Source of the DNA: Heliocybe sulcata | Lineage: Eukaryota > Basidiomycota > Agaricomycetes > Gloeophyllales > Gloeophyllaceae | Length of the DNA stretch: 64,000 nucleotides | Direction of reading: 5' to 3' | Assembly (NCBI GenBank): GCA_004369045.1 | Contig: ML213513.1 | Coordinates: 660,968-724,967 of the forward strand | In this document: piece by piece, positions 15,529 through 39,460 of the stretch | Numbering within the stretch: position 1 is the first letter of the stretch | Layout of the letters: each line of letters begins with the position of its first letter | Position numbers and translations under genes: made by a program | The notes under the pieces: generated by a model | What the model was told of the DNA's origin: nothing | The model's input: only the letters and a program-made list of their open reading frames with translations | Database searches by the model: none

Positions 15529-18476
<2,948 letters not shown>

Positions 18477-33284: not shown

Positions 33285-34351
33285 TGTCTGACGTGCCTGC
33301 TTTTATAGTCTTGTGATATGACCTGATAAACAATAGACACTTTGCCCTCTATGGAGGCATGTCTACAAAGGAGGATTATTTTCGTTGGTGCCGTTACAGT
33401 CCTCATTGCAACATAAAGGAGAGTGACGTTACCAACAAAGTCCGGGTGAACAGAGGATTATTTGCAGATCCTCAGGTATAAAAAAACGCTCCCAATTGCC
33501 GCTAGTCTGTTAAATTGATGATTCGAGATAGTCTCCGAACGACATACAGAATGCTGCAGTGGCAGAACGCGTCCAAGATGTTCGTCGCATTGCGCGTGAC
33601 ACGTCGCGTCCAGTCACATTTACTTCCACGTGGCAGCCATGCAGTTCCGCGCGTCTCCGGCGGCAGCGAGACTAGTGAACCAACTCTTCGTGCCTCCCGT
33701 TCATTTGCATTCGCTCTGCACCTCCCAAGCAGTTTGACGTCAACTGCAGGCAGGCTCGGCCTGGGCGATGCTACACAACGCTGAGTTCGGGTGCAGTCCA
33801 ATGCTTTGCAATCACCCACTACGAGACGACCAAGTCGACGATCAGCTGGAAGGCGTATCGAATGCTGCCCATGTTTCGGGGAAATCATTGTTGACACGAT
33901 GATTATCATGTGCCCATCCGGCCCTGCTGCCTGGGACCTTCGCTCGCCTTCGAAGATCTGATGGAGATAATTCGGAATAAAGGGGGAGGTGATATCAATA
34001 GGCACACTGAAGTGCTGAAGTGGCCATTACTTCGTCCTATCCAATCAGCCCTACTTATGCCGTATCGAAAACGGTGCGGATTGTCCGTGCTTCTCCTTCT
34101 GTACCTCTAACACCGTTTCTACCAGAAATTCTAAATATTGTACTATTTTCCCTGCATAACCGGTGCGTCTTACGATACCTGCCCAAGAATACTCACTAAT
34201 TTATGGCATCAAGCGTTCCGCCTTGGACTGCTTATAGACTCGTGACCCGGGTGAAGGAATACGGACCAGAATTCGATTGGTCATCCTGGCGGGTATATCA
34301 AGAGCTCATCCACATCCCATTTCCCCACCCGACGAGAGCCCGTCCTAAGCC
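33285..34351. other. Divergent intergenic region upstream of CE16
   Basis: Contains the promoters of the disordered protein (left) and the CE16 esterase (right). TATATCAA at 34294-34301, about 50 bp before the CE16 start, is a probable TATA box. No further gene is seen. Confidence 0.45.
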
Positions 34352-35478
34352 ATGTCGCGCCTCTTAGCCTCCCTCGTCGCCGTCCTGGCCGTCCTGCCCT
34401 CCACCCTCGCCTTCGGGGGCCCCCTTCCTGGCCAGATCAAGAACCTGGTGACGTTCGGCGACTCGTACACGGACGCTGGCGACCCAGCGGACGGTGGGCA
34501 GGCCTGGCCCGTCTACGCTGCGGACTATGGCCACTTCAACCTGTACCCCTTCGCCAAGTCCGGTGCAGCATGCTCGAACAACCTCACTGACCGCCCGTTC
34601 CCTCCGGTTTTCGAGTACCAGATCCCGACATATCTTCAGGAAGTGCAGAATGGCACTCTGGCTCTCAACCCCTACGAGACCATCTACACGCTCTGGATCG
34701 GTACGAATGACGTGGGGGTGAATGAGCTGCTCACTGGCTCTCAAACCCCTGGGGTTACCCTCGTGAACACAACCCAGTGCGCAGTGAACTGGGTCTCGAC
34801 AATGTACGGCTATGGTGCAAGAAACTTCCTGTTCCAGAACGTGAGTGTCGCATCTCCTTAATGAGATAGTCGAATCTAATATGCCATGCCGCAGATGCTC
34901 ACCCTGCAAAACACTATCCTATACTCGAACTACTCCTATCCTAACCGCTACTACGTCGCCCCGCGCAACACAACGGAATGGAACGTCATGATGACAGAAA
35001 TCACGAACACCGGGAACCTGCTCTCCCGCATGATGCTCGAGAACCTCGCGTACCAGCTGCCCGGCGCGCACATCGGTGCCTATCCTTGCATTTCTGATCC
35101 AATTGGCCCATTAATCATGATTGCCTCGCAGGTATCTTCGACTCGTACGGCCTCTTCTCCGACATGTACAATAACCCAGCGCAATACTTGAACGGTACCG
35201 CGCCGCTGAACGTGACCGGCTGCGTGAATTCGTGCGTCTACCCTGTCAACGCGAACCTCAGTGACACGCCTGGTGTCTGTACCGTTGCGAACGGGACCGA
35301 CCGCGACAGCTTCTTGTGGTGAGTGTCAACGCTCGTTTTCTATGGAACATACATGTTAACATGTTGTCGAAGGTATGACGAGCTACACCCGTCCGAGCAG
35401 GCGGACAGAATTGTGGCACGGGAGATTACAGGCGCGATTCTGAGGACGTCGGAGAACTACACGACCTGGCTCAGTTAA
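34352..35478 (+). CDS. Secreted GDSL acetylesterase, carbohydrate esterase family 16
   Basis: Exons 34352-34840, 34895-35075, 35132-35318, 35373-35478; 320 residues. A signal peptide (residues 1-20, ending STLAFG) is followed by the GDSL block I LVTFGDSYTDAG with the nucleophile Ser, block III WIGTNDVG, and block V DELHPSEQADRI carrying the catalytic Asp/His. This is the SGNH-hydrolase layout of fungal CE16 enzymes, which remove acetyl groups from xylo- and manno-oligosaccharides during plant-wall breakdown. Several N-glycosylation sites (NGT, NTT, NLS) fit secretion. Codon use is C-rich in third positions, as expected for a well-expressed secreted enzyme. Confidence 0.93.
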
Positions 35479-35740: not shown

Positions 35741-37573
35741 TCACCACACCTTCTGACCCCTGGCAATTCTGTCCTGCTCCGAAGAGCGATAGAATCCAGC
35801 CTTAGCCGTCTTACCGCCCATACGCACGAGGCCCACCAAGTGATGCACACCCGCAATCACCCCATCAATAACAGCAACGTCCTTGCCCACAGCCTTCTCC
35901 ACCGCCGGCTTCAGGAGGGTCATACCTGCACATCCAAGAGTCAATGTATCAGCGCCCTTCGCCACCAACTTCGTCCCCGCCTCCGCCATAATGCGCATCA
36001 CCTCCTCTGTCGGCTTGCTCTCTAGCTCCAGGACGCCGAGGTCGCAACTCTCCACCCCGACACAGAAGCTCTCGAGGCCGTAATGCCTAACGGCATCTGC
36101 TTGCATTATGTTGGAGCGTTCCGAGACCGCTATAATGCCGAAGCGTGCCCCCAGGGTGCGTGCCGCGAACAAGCTGGCCTCCATAATGCCAACGATGGGC
36201 TGCTCGAGCTCCTCCCGTAGCATACGAATCAATGCATGGTCGGAGTAGCATGCGACGAGGATAGCATCGAAGTCGCTGGCAACGGGCAGGACATCACGCA
36301 CGGCGGTGGCAGCAGACAGAATGTTGTCGAAGTTACCCTCAATAGCAGTGGGACCAGGGGCAGAAGCGGTTAGGCCGATGACTTCGACGTCAGGGGGTAA
36401 AGTCGGCTTGACCATCTCAACGCAGTTGTCCGTCATGAACTTCGTTGAGTTAGGATTGCACAGGAGAATGCGGATCTTCTCCCTCCGGACACCATTCACA
36501 GACGTCCCATTCACGACGGTAGCAGAAGTGCCGTCCGTTGAAGGGGGCTCAATAACGCCTGTTTGCTCCGTGATCAGCTTGTAATGCTCTATCCTTCTGT
36601 GCCTGCCAAAGTCGAAAGTCTTCTTCTTCCCTGCTTGACACGCGTCCAGGTCGCAGTCCGCGACGATGACCTCATCCTCTGATGTCCGGCTCTCCGCCAG
36701 GATGTATCCCTCGGGATCCACAATACAACTGCCGGCAATCAAGTGAAACTTGCCATCATCGTACCCACACCTCGCAGCCGACACCGAGAACGTTGCGTTC
36801 GTGTACGAATGTCCCTGCATGGACAGCTTGTGCTGCATGAGCGCCCTCTCCTCGGCCTCCTTGGGATCCATATTGGCATCAGCACCCCATAGGTCCGGAG
36901 CATACCCGGCGGTATTGTAACCGCAAAGAACTACCTCCACACCCTGTAGACCCAACACCCGCCACGACTCTGCCCAACGACGGTCATTACAGATCATCAT
37001 ACCGAAGATGGGATCGCCACGCCCTTCAGGAGGCCCATTCTTCTCCAAACCGGGGACTCGGAACGCCTTCCACCCCAAGTTCCCTGGCTTGAAGTACCGC
37101 TTCTCCAGCTGCTGAATGGCATCCGGGTTCTCAAACGGCTCGAACGTCCCAGGCAGATGGATCTTCCGGTACTTGCTGATGATACTGCCGTCGTGACTAC
37201 TGTAGTAGACGCAAGTATTGAAGTGCTCCGCATCATCTGTGGCCTCAGCGAAACCCACAGATATGTCGACGCCCAGCTCCTGTGCTCGGTCGAACAAGGG
37301 CTTCGTCTGCGGACTCGTCGTGATGTCGCCCTGCTCGTGCCATGACTCGAGTTCGTCCTCGTGGATGATGTAGCGCGGGAAGAAAGTGGTGAAGGCGATC
37401 TCGGGGAAGAGTACGACTTTGGCACCCTGGGCAGCGGCGGCGTCGAGCAGGCGCAGCATCCGCGCCATGGTTTTTTCTCGACCATCGGTGCGGTGGGTTG
37501 CGCCCATTTGGGCGGCAGCAAGACGTACCACGCGAGGCATGACGGGCAGGCGCTTGGAGGGACGAGGTCGCAA
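35741..37573 (-). CDS. Fused N-carbamoyl-D-amino-acid hydrolase and Asp/Glu/hydantoin racemase
   Basis: Single exon, 610 residues if started at 37573; the internal ATG at 37540 (MPRVVRLAAAQMG) is an equally good start. Residues about 15-335 are a nitrilase-superfamily carbamoylase. The catalytic triad is visible as Glu58 in FPEIAFTTFFPR, Lys137 in KYRKIHLPG and Cys195 in MMICNDRRWAE, with the family landmark CGYNTAGYAPDLWG. A Thr/Ser/Gly linker (about 341-364) leads to an Asp/Glu/hydantoin racemase domain, the yeast Dcg1/HyuE family: ILLCNPNSTKFMT, catalytic Cys442 in VACYSDHALIR and Cys548 in TLGCAGMTLL. In bacteria these are two separate genes of D-amino-acid production from hydantoins. The gene is divergent from a hydantoinase. 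No break is seen, so the fusion looks real. Confidence 0.93.
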   Translation of the reverse strand: MRPRPSKRLPVMPRVVRLAAAQMGATHRTDGREKTMARMLRLLDAAAAQGAKVVLFPEIAFTTFFPRYIIHEDELESWHEQGDITTSPQTKPLFDRAQELGVDISVGFAEATDDAEHFNTCVYYSSHDGSIISKYRKIHLPGTFEPFENPDAIQQLEKRYFKPGNLGWKAFRVPGLEKNGPPEGRGDPIFGMMICNDRRWAESWRVLGLQGVEVVLCGYNTAGYAPDLWGADANMDPKEAEERALMQHKLSMQGHSYTNATFSVSAARCGYDDGKFHLIAGSCIVDPEGYILAESRTSEDEVIVADCDLDACQAGKKKTFDFGRHRRIEHYKLITEQTGVIEPPSTDGTSATVVNGTSVNGVRREKIRILLCNPNSTKFMTDNCVEMVKPTLPPDVEVIGLTASAPGPTAIEGNFDNILSAATAVRDVLPVASDFDAILVACYSDHALIRMLREELEQPIVGIMEASLFAARTLGARFGIIAVSERSNIMQADAVRHYGLESFCVGVESCDLGVLELESKPTEEVMRIMAEAGTKLVAKGADTLTLGCAGMTLLKPAVEKAVGKDVAVIDGVIAGVHHLVGLVRMGGKTAKAGFYRSSEQDRIARGQKVW

Positions 37574-37878
37574 CCGTAAAGAGTATCAGTAAGTTGGGTA
37601 CCACGGATGGAATGGAGAGAGCTGCCGTAAAAACATGGTATACTTATACGTTGTTCCTGCATCATTCCAGGACGGCGCACCTCCTTTCCCCATCATGCCG
37701 CCGGTCCCTATCTTATCTCCCACCTTATCTCGATGAATTGGTGGGCAAAGAAGAGAGGTCGGAAAGCTTCCGGAAGTCCGATCCAGGTCACAATGGCACA
37801 TCTAAAAGCATAGATGGGCCTCAGCTTGACTTGGGAGCTATCCAGGTTTATCGGGTCTCTCTCGCTGGCTCGTTCACC
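37574..37878. promoter_or_regulatory. Shared 305-bp promoter of the hydantoin genes, with GATA sites
   Basis: Two GATAAG elements (read as CTTATC on the + strand) lie at 37712-37717 and 37724-37729, 12 bp apart, and a third weaker CGATAA lies near 37845. Paired GATAAG sites are the binding sites of nitrogen-regulatory GATA factors (AreA/Nit2/Gln3 type). Both hydantoin genes would share them. Confidence 0.5.
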
Positions 37879-39460
37879 ATGGAGGTCGATCTCATCATCC
37901 GCAACGCAACCGTCGTGAGTGAAACGTACTGCGATTCTTGAGTAGTGCGGCGCTCAACAGCTACTATGCACCTCTGCAGGCCACCGCGTCCGACATCATC
38001 CCTGACCAGGACATTGTCGTGAAGGATGAACGCATTCTCTGCCTTGGTCAAGGTCTGTCCGCAATCTTCAAAGCAGCCAAGGAGATCGATGCAGAGGGCG
38101 CGTACGTGACACCCGGAGGCATCGACTCTCATGTGCATTTCGACCAGCCCATGATGAGAACAGGCGACACCTTCGAAACGGGCACCCGTTCTGCCATCGC
38201 AGGCGGCACAACCACGATCCTGGCCTTCGCGCAGCAGCGCAAGACCGATATGAGCCTGTACCCCGTCGTGGAGGATTACCACCGGCGCGCGACGGGCAAC
38301 GCCTACTGCGACTATGGCTTCCACCTTATCCTCGCCGAGCCAACGACCAAGATTCTCAATGAAGAGCTGCCGGTCTTAGTCAAGGAGCAGGGAATCACGT
38401 CGGTGAAGTTGTACATGACATACGAGCCTCTCAAGCTCGTCGACCGCCAGATTCTGGACGTCATGATGAGCACCCGCGCGCTGGGGATGACGACCATGGT
38501 ACATGCAGAAAATAGCGATATGATTGACTGGATCACGGAAAAACTAGAGGCGAAGAAGATGACGGACCCGTACTACCATGCTGTGAGCCGGCCGAACATT
38601 GCTGAGGACGAGGCGACGTACCGCGTTATTTCGTTATCGGAGCTCATGGATATTCCCATACTCATCGTCCATATGTCATCCAAGATCGCTGCGTCACATG
38701 TGCGCAAAGCACAGACGCGCGACCTACCCATCCATGCTGAGACGTGCCCGCACTATCTCTTCCTGAAGAGTGACAGACTGAGGGGCGAGCACTTCGAGGG
38801 AGCCAAATGCGTGTGTTCGCCGCCGTTGCGGGAGGACCAGATGGATTTGGACGCCATGTGGCAAGGGCTGAGGAATGGCACATTCACTACGTTCTCCAGT
38901 GACCATGCAGCGACAAAGTAGGTTTGATACTTTCTCCCTCCTCCATGATAGTTCACAACATACGCAGGTTTGACCACCCGCAAGGGAAGAAAGCCGGTCT
39001 CGTTGACGGTATCGCGAGCTTCCGCAAGATTCCTAACGGCCTCCCAGGTGTCGAAACCCGTGTCCCAATCCTCTTTTCCGGCGGTGTCCTCAAGGACAAG
39101 ATCACGATCCAAAAGTTCGTCGAGCTCACAAGTTCTAACCCAGCAAAGCTATATGGACTTGGAAAGAAGGGCACAATTGCACCTGGCTTCGACGCCGACT
39201 TGGTCATCTGGTACCCATCAGGCAAGATGACGCCCTTCCCACTCAGCAATGACAGCCTCCACCACGACATTGACTATACACCGTTTGAGGGTATGGGGTT
39301 CGAGAATTGGCCCAGATGGACGATCTTGCGAGGCGCAGTCGTTTGGGATAGGGATAACGGGGGGCTTGTCGGGAAGAAGGGAGATGGACAGTACTTGAGG
39401 AGGGGTCGCAGTACGCTGAGCAAGCCACGGGAGGTCTTTGTCAATGAGTTCCGGCCATGA
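37879..39460 (+). CDS. D-hydantoinase / dihydropyrimidinase-type cyclic amidohydrolase
   Basis: Exons 37879-37914, 37980-38917, 38968-39460; 488 residues. All metal ligands of the binuclear amidohydrolase site are present: His63 and His65 in GGIDSHVHFDQP, the carboxylated Lys155 in ITSVKLYMTYE, His187 in TMVHAEN, His243 in LIVHMSS, and Asp320 in TFSSDHAATK. The enzyme class opens hydantoins or dihydropyrimidines to N-carbamoyl amino acids, exactly the substrate of the carbamoylase encoded next door. The first exon codes only MEVDLIIRNATV. The protein resembles hydantoinases more than allantoinases by its ligand spacing, but substrate choice (hydantoin, dihydropyrimidine, allantoin) cannot be settled from sequence alone. 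Confidence 0.93.

Follow-up and report, generated by a model that had tools for sequence, protein, structure and literature searches.

Hydantoins are cyclic ureas, and the hydantoinase process of bacteria draws on three enzyme families, a hydantoinase, a carbamoylase, and a racemase, encoded in neighboring genes. Industry makes D-amino acids with these enzymes combined as separate parts, as passages of PMC7431475 describe. Here we analyze a fungal locus within a stretch of 64,000 nucleotides of contig ML213513.1 (the window), in which hydantoinase, carbamoylase, and racemase domains, predicted to serve a joint pathway, are encoded together in two genes, the carbamoylase and the racemase being fused in a single protein. 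The two genes look like a compact kit that would convert hydantoins into D-amino acids and ammonia. The host, with a genome of 31.6 Mb, probably belongs to the Gloeophyllales, a group of wood-decay habit. Judging from the domains, residues, gene arrangement, recurrence, and bacterial clusters, we put the probability that the pair serves the catabolism of 5-substituted hydantoins as one unit at roughly 60%.

Searches of open-access full texts turned up no description of a fungal hydantoinase/carbamoylase/racemase module, in line with the original prediction, which knew of no described fungal pathway of this type. The pair is real and conserved, an apparently undescribed variation on the hydantoinase genes of bacteria, built of known enzymes in a new packing. 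If this reading is true, an undescribed nitrogen-scavenging route would be added to fungal metabolism, a function would be proposed for a protein family mostly listed in databases as "carbon-nitrogen hydrolase," and a natural one-chain carbamoylase-racemase would be at hand that industry could test directly.

The Gene Pair and Its Conserved Residues

The fusion gene and the amidohydrolase gene are divergently oriented and 338 bp apart (table 1), placed as the original prediction had them, with a hydantoinase-type amidohydrolase (37879-39460) head-to-head with a carbamoylase-racemase gene. The relatives of the fusion were taken as the best 120 of 673 database matches, to which the residue counts refer. 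They match over 95-100% of the query length, all with both Pfam domains, and the named proteins among them are fungal without exception. Among carbon-nitrogen hydrolases, the N-terminal domain lies nearest to the D-carbamoylases, and its six residues given in table 1 are identical in 120/120 of these fusions: we take the Glu-Lys-Cys set to be the catalytic triad, and R187, R188, and N209 to be the residues holding the D-carboxylate. The racemase cysteines, presumably the two catalytic cysteines of hydantoin racemase, are also well kept (C431 in 120/120, C537 in 119/120). Between the domains, the linker shows hardly any consensus residue in a 30-row alignment.

For the amidohydrolase, the best 120 of 7700 database matches were used. 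Its metal ligands, which we assume to form a binuclear site of four His, one Asp, and a carboxylated Lys, are kept in 118-120 of these 120 relatives, the three exceptions being gaps (two at H63, one at H65). The complete metal ligands, the Glu-Lys-Cys triad, and the two racemase cysteines that had been claimed for this locus are thus all present and kept in the listed relatives. The protein scores 457 bits against TIGR02033 (D-hydantoinase/dihydropyrimidinase), above the cut-off of 393.25, and 588 bits against the subfamily model PRK13404, whose cut-off of 647 it does not reach; the bacterial protein at locus L097 reaches 790. The gene (37879-39460, + strand) is modeled with three exons and two introns (65 and 50 bp), giving a predicted 488 aa; this splice model, a sequence-based prediction, was picked from six stop-free models and retains most of the conserved N-terminus.

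Table 1. Coordinates of the gene pair and its parts within the window
Feature	Coordinates	Strand	Details
D-carbamoylase::racemase fusion gene	35741..37540	-	Single exon, one open frame, 599 aa; start codon at 37540, stop ends 35741
D-carbamoylase (carbon-nitrogen hydrolase) domain, residues 6-305	36626..37525	-	E47, K126, C184, R187, R188, N209; CN_hydrolase E 1.4e-41
Interdomain linker, residues 331-353	36482..36550	-	Longest stretch with pLDDT <50 in the predicted structure
Asp/Glu/hydantoin racemase domain, residues 358-567	35840..36469	-	C431, C537; Pfam E 4.7e-54
Divergent intergenic region, 338 bp	37541..37878		Four HGATAR-type motifs on the - strand, starts 37708, 37713, 37725, 37848
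Amidohydrolase exon 1	37879..37914	+	Splice model
Amidohydrolase exon 2	37980..38917	+	Metal-site positions H63, H65, K155, H187, H243, D320
Amidohydrolase exon 3	38968..39460	+	Stop ends at 39460

Recurrence in Fungi and Neighborhoods in Bacteria

Among the matches listed, the closest relatives of both proteins are found in Neolentinus lepideus, where the fusion has a full-length match of 88% identity and the amidohydrolase one of 92% that covers 86% of the query. Gloeophyllum trabeum follows (75% and 87%, respectively). As a proxy for linkage, an equal size of the longest contig for a fusion and an amidohydrolase was taken to mean the same contig, where a shared long contig is no proof of adjacency. 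By this proxy, 17 of the 120 listed amidohydrolases share a contig with a listed fusion, and all 17 fall in ranks 1-50 and none in ranks 51-120 (P 5e-8); some of the shared contigs are as short as 4,579 and 12,564 bases, which supports adjacency. Consecutive locus tags add Diplodia seriata (SLS55_008934/008935) as an 18th pair and are also seen in Colletotrichum jinshuiense (EsH8_III_001426/001427), Aspergillus terreus (HFD88_010637/010636), and A. nanangensis (FE257_005704/005703); such tags are evidence for neighborhood rather than for orientation. Because the pair recurs in other fungi, the absence of pairing from every related genome, named in the original prediction as grounds for abandoning it, does not apply. 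Thirteen of the 18 paired amidohydrolases were placed in trees together with that of the window, and they share a single clade (support 96 and 97 in two trees), which also contains proteins without shown pairing.

The fungal fusions form one clade with respect to joined bacterial sequences (support 100/100), and their racemase domains likewise a separate clade (100/98). Several stand-alone fungal racemases (P0256, P0258, P0261, P0304, P0314, P0317, and P0320), 58-64% identical to the racemase domain of the fusion, take up several nested positions within the fusion tree, a pattern that repeated or later splitting, or errors in the gene models, could produce.

Colletotrichum and Zymoseptoria fusions are nested with those of Saccharata, Diplodia, and Phyllosticta (100/98), and the two genera are also together in the amidohydrolase tree. 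Their sequences of both genes (fusions P0022, P0039, and P0080; amidohydrolases P0140, P0142, and P0163) group beside the Botryosphaeriales, which we take to be at odds with species kinship; for Zymoseptoria this concerns the placement of both genes in the trees rather than their pairing. The grouping suggests that transfer may have occurred among Ascomycota. In the rooted fusion tree, the Ascomycota lie on one side with a support of 48/68 only, which does not indicate whether genes passed from Ascomycota to Gloeophyllales or the reverse. Transfer of the racemase Pfam family from bacteria to fungi and between fungi has already been recorded in PMC5169069, whose main text holds neither the term carbamoyl nor carbon-nitrogen hydrolase.

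With the carbamoylase domain as query, bacterial and archaeal genomes gave 577 loci, of which the best 80, at 46-53% identity, were evaluated. Both an amidohydrolase and a racemase accompany the carbamoylase at 16 loci, an amidohydrolase only at 9, a racemase only at 19, and neither at 36; the amidohydrolase match is strong (41-47% identity) at 7 of the 25 loci that have one and weak (23-31%) at the other 18. At L097, L098, and L102 the amidohydrolase, carbamoylase, and racemase are consecutive on one strand. The nearest bacterial carbamoylases were rejected as a guide to the substrate: the nine nearest loci (L017-L025) show no amidohydrolase or racemase match in the flanks examined, and 36 of the 80 loci have neither partner. 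No fused carbamoylase-racemase frame was found in the 80 loci or in six inspected candidates; in G149 and G250, suspected from the frame listing, and G209 and G240, where single stretches span both domains, the carbamoylase frames (320-387 aa) stop before the racemase. Eight loci (L035, L037, L039, L062, L066, L071, L076, and L084, mostly Acetobacteraceae and Roseomonadaceae) carry a second D-carbamoylase gene; these second copies form one clade, and a weakly similar amidohydrolase (23-31%) is present at their loci too.

The amidohydrolase was searched in 289 alphaproteobacterial genomes, with hits at E 1e-60 or better divided into a near group of 53 hits from 47 genomes (at least 345 bits, 43-55% identity) and a distant group of 60 hits, a boundary set after the hits were seen. 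In the near group, at least 23 of 53 hits, spread over 22 genomes, have a D-carbamoylase within 6 kb, versus 1 of the 60 distant hits (P 3e-8); that one is a fragment located where a contig ends, and its 48% identity places it with the near group. Both a D-carbamoylase and a racemase accompany at least 18 of the 53 near versus none of the 60 distant amidohydrolases among the matches listed (P 2e-7). These counts are lower bounds, as the best few candidates per genome were scored, and the P values are only indicative because the genomes are related; 30 of the 53 near hits are without such linkage. When eight distant hits serve as the root of a quick tree, the fungal amidohydrolases (the yeast dihydropyrimidinase among them) form a clade with the bacterial near group (100), within which they nest (92), beside L095 (93).

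Proposed Function and Its Alternatives

Under the hydantoinase-process reading, the amidohydrolase would open the ring of a D-hydantoin to yield an N-carbamoyl-D-amino acid. From this intermediate, the N-terminal domain of the fusion would release ammonia, CO2, and the D-amino acid, while its C-terminal domain would racemize the leftover L-hydantoin, such that the whole racemate could be used. Both genes would be expressed jointly from a bidirectional promoter that is probably nitrogen-controlled, and the unit may serve nitrogen scavenging. Fungal nitrogen genes are regulated by GATA factors. The four HGATAR-type motifs on one strand of the intergenic region compare with 0.8 expected by shuffling (P 0.007), and four are reached in 1.1% of 1274 overlapping window tiles of equal length; this modest excess, together with the common 338-bp stretch, is no more than suggestive of a shared or nitrogen control. 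A wider proposal, namely a widespread and horizontally mobile fungal hydantoin salvage that forms D-amino acids, is laid out in two divergent nitrogen-controlled genes, and includes a carbamoylase-racemase fusion seen in no examined bacterial locus, is held tentatively, at slightly short of even odds.

The hydantoinase-process reading is the best one and a likely one, with pyrimidine breakdown as its main rival: the near amidohydrolases are linked to D-carbamoylases and racemases, and a hydantoinase role is therefore favored by guilt by association. Several points nevertheless weigh against it, among them the late setting of the boundary between near and distant hits. Linkage is seen for at least 18 of the 120 listed fusions (the 17 and Diplodia), the other 102, many of them Dothideomycetes, being without shown linkage. 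Sequence, fold, and conserved residues do not tell the amidohydrolase from a dihydropyrimidinase, and the fungal family includes the yeast enzyme (2fty), so that either ring specificity would fit. Residues that would set the 50 nearest fungal amidohydrolases apart as hydantoinases were sought, a route rejected as not useful, as ranks 1-50 differ from ranks 51-120 by the criterion only at S476, near the C-terminus. Relatives of M20-type carbamoylases are present elsewhere in the genome, as TIGR01879-type amidases: C19 reaches 220 bits (cut-off 204), and C6, in pieces, stays below the cut-off. Finally, joining the fungal racemase with the 15 racemases from D-carbamoylase loci (p-AU 0.51) fits as well as joining it with the allantoin-racemase clade (p-AU 0.52), and tblastn scores are 91-130 bits to the latter versus 69-98 to the former, the allantoin-racemase rows having been chosen for high scores.

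Alternatively, the amidohydrolase could simply be the dihydropyrimidinase of this fungus, acting in reductive pyrimidine breakdown, with the fused carbamoylase/racemase handling its ureido products or something unrelated. Among proteins of solved structure, the best sequence match is the dihydropyrimidinase of Lachancea (Saccharomyces) kluyveri (403 bits), a genome search returned no other gene of this kind apart from an allantoinase-like one, and C19 and C6 could serve as beta-alanine synthase. The yeast enzyme falls outside the clade of the window amidohydrolase and the 13 paired ones placed in the trees, and we regard this alternative as unlikely, although it is the strongest of those considered.

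Less probable still is a role in allantoin or ureide metabolism, in which the racemase domain would be an allantoin racemase and the carbamoylase would act on a ureide product. The closest solved structures of the racemase domain are indeed allantoin racemases, and the tblastn scores lean the same way; however, the amidohydrolase stays well under the cut-off of the allantoinase model TIGR03178 (230 vs 357.85 bits). Moreover, the genome holds a separate allantoinase-like gene in pieces (C26, L014 2102-3403, - strand; 32% match to the window amidohydrolase), named by eye and the only other amidohydrolase relative returned, and a stand-alone racemase whose gene has one or more introns (C21, L013 ~1895-2700), 33% identical to the racemase domain of the fusion and on a very long branch, so that allantoin breakdown seems to have its own genes. 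We tentatively label this stand-alone racemase DCG1-like; the original prediction had offered yeast DCG1, a stand-alone member of the racemase family, as the nearest parallel, a comparison that is weak given this separate gene, and we reject it. Frames beside C21 (L013 1-1479) resemble an ammonium transporter by eye.

An earlier assignment of the racemase domain to the allantoin-racemase side was withdrawn, as it rested on a midpoint root of an unrooted tree in which the fungal clade sits on an unresolved centre, and the p-AU values fit both sides. Six of the 15 D-carbamoylase loci whose racemases form the one bacterial clade (L085, L087, L090, L095, L100, and L102) have a near-group amidohydrolase. 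The other clade (19 rows) includes both allantoin racemases and, which counts against the allantoin alternative, racemases of hydantoinase-carbamoylase clusters (L097, L098, and L148); these three thus group with allantoin racemase 3qvj and not with the 15 racemases of other D-carbamoylase loci. The racemase-family domain with both cysteines stands as claimed for this locus, and because either placement fits equally, "hydantoin racemase" is a reasonable rather than a demonstrated label.

The pathway product of hydantoin-5-propionate hydrolase is the L form; a unit dedicated to one natural hydantoin (e.g., from histidine, ergothioneine, or damaged protein) rather than to hydantoins generally would suit a retention over a wide fungal range, which may reflect a common natural substrate, but it is improbable given 202 versus 650 bits against the hydantoin-5-propionate hydrolase model and a carbamoylase of D type.

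Regarding the hydantoinase-process reading, the original prediction of a hydantoin unit holds for the three domains in two divergent genes and for the bacterial relatives in hydantoinase-carbamoylase-racemase clusters, whereas ring specificity, co-regulation, and self-containment are proposals. A "self-contained" unit is unproven: a carbamoylase of another family lies elsewhere in the genome, and no transporter was matched among the ten scanned open frames of the window (36 frames listed). Three of these ten have Pfam matches (GDSL lipase, NAT with semialdehyde dehydrogenase, and ThiF) and the other seven none. The GDSL-type lipase/acylhydrolase-like gene (34349-35478, +) seems to end ~260 bases before the stop of the fusion gene, as judged by eye, and 16315-17499 (-) with adjoining frames encodes a semialdehyde dehydrogenase domain and a NAT domain of the N-acetylglutamate synthase type, a combination we take to be that of the arginine gene ARG5,6.

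Comparison with Known Systems

The L. kluyveri dihydropyrimidinase (PYD2; 2fty), whose known role is pyrimidine breakdown, belongs to the same fungal amidohydrolase family, and its identity to the Gloeophyllum ortholog is 44% across 485 residues. The D-carbamoylases of Agrobacterium and Nitratireductor (1fo6 and 6led) resemble the fusion over the whole N-terminal domain (46% identity to 6led) and in the catalytic residues, but stand alone with ~304 residues, whereas the fungal domain has short insertions and a racemase behind it. The allantoin racemases AllR and HpxA (5lfd and 3qvj) have the racemase family and both cysteines in common with the fungal domain, but are stand-alone proteins, ~28-31% identical in fold alignments, and known for allantoin rather than for an association with carbamoylases. 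Two hydantoinase-process enzymes in one chain are also found in an engineered N-carbamylase-D-hydantoinase fusion (Kim et al. 2000, as given in a reference entry of PMC9505000); judging from that entry, this is a man-made fusion of a different enzyme pair, whereas the fungal one is natural and joins carbamoylase and racemase. A further likeness is to the bacterial hydantoinase process gene sets with all three families in neighboring genes (e.g., L085, L087, L090, L091, L097, L098, and L102), from which the fungal locus differs in the union of two of the three enzymes in a single protein, in the divergent orientation of its genes, and in the splicing of one gene.

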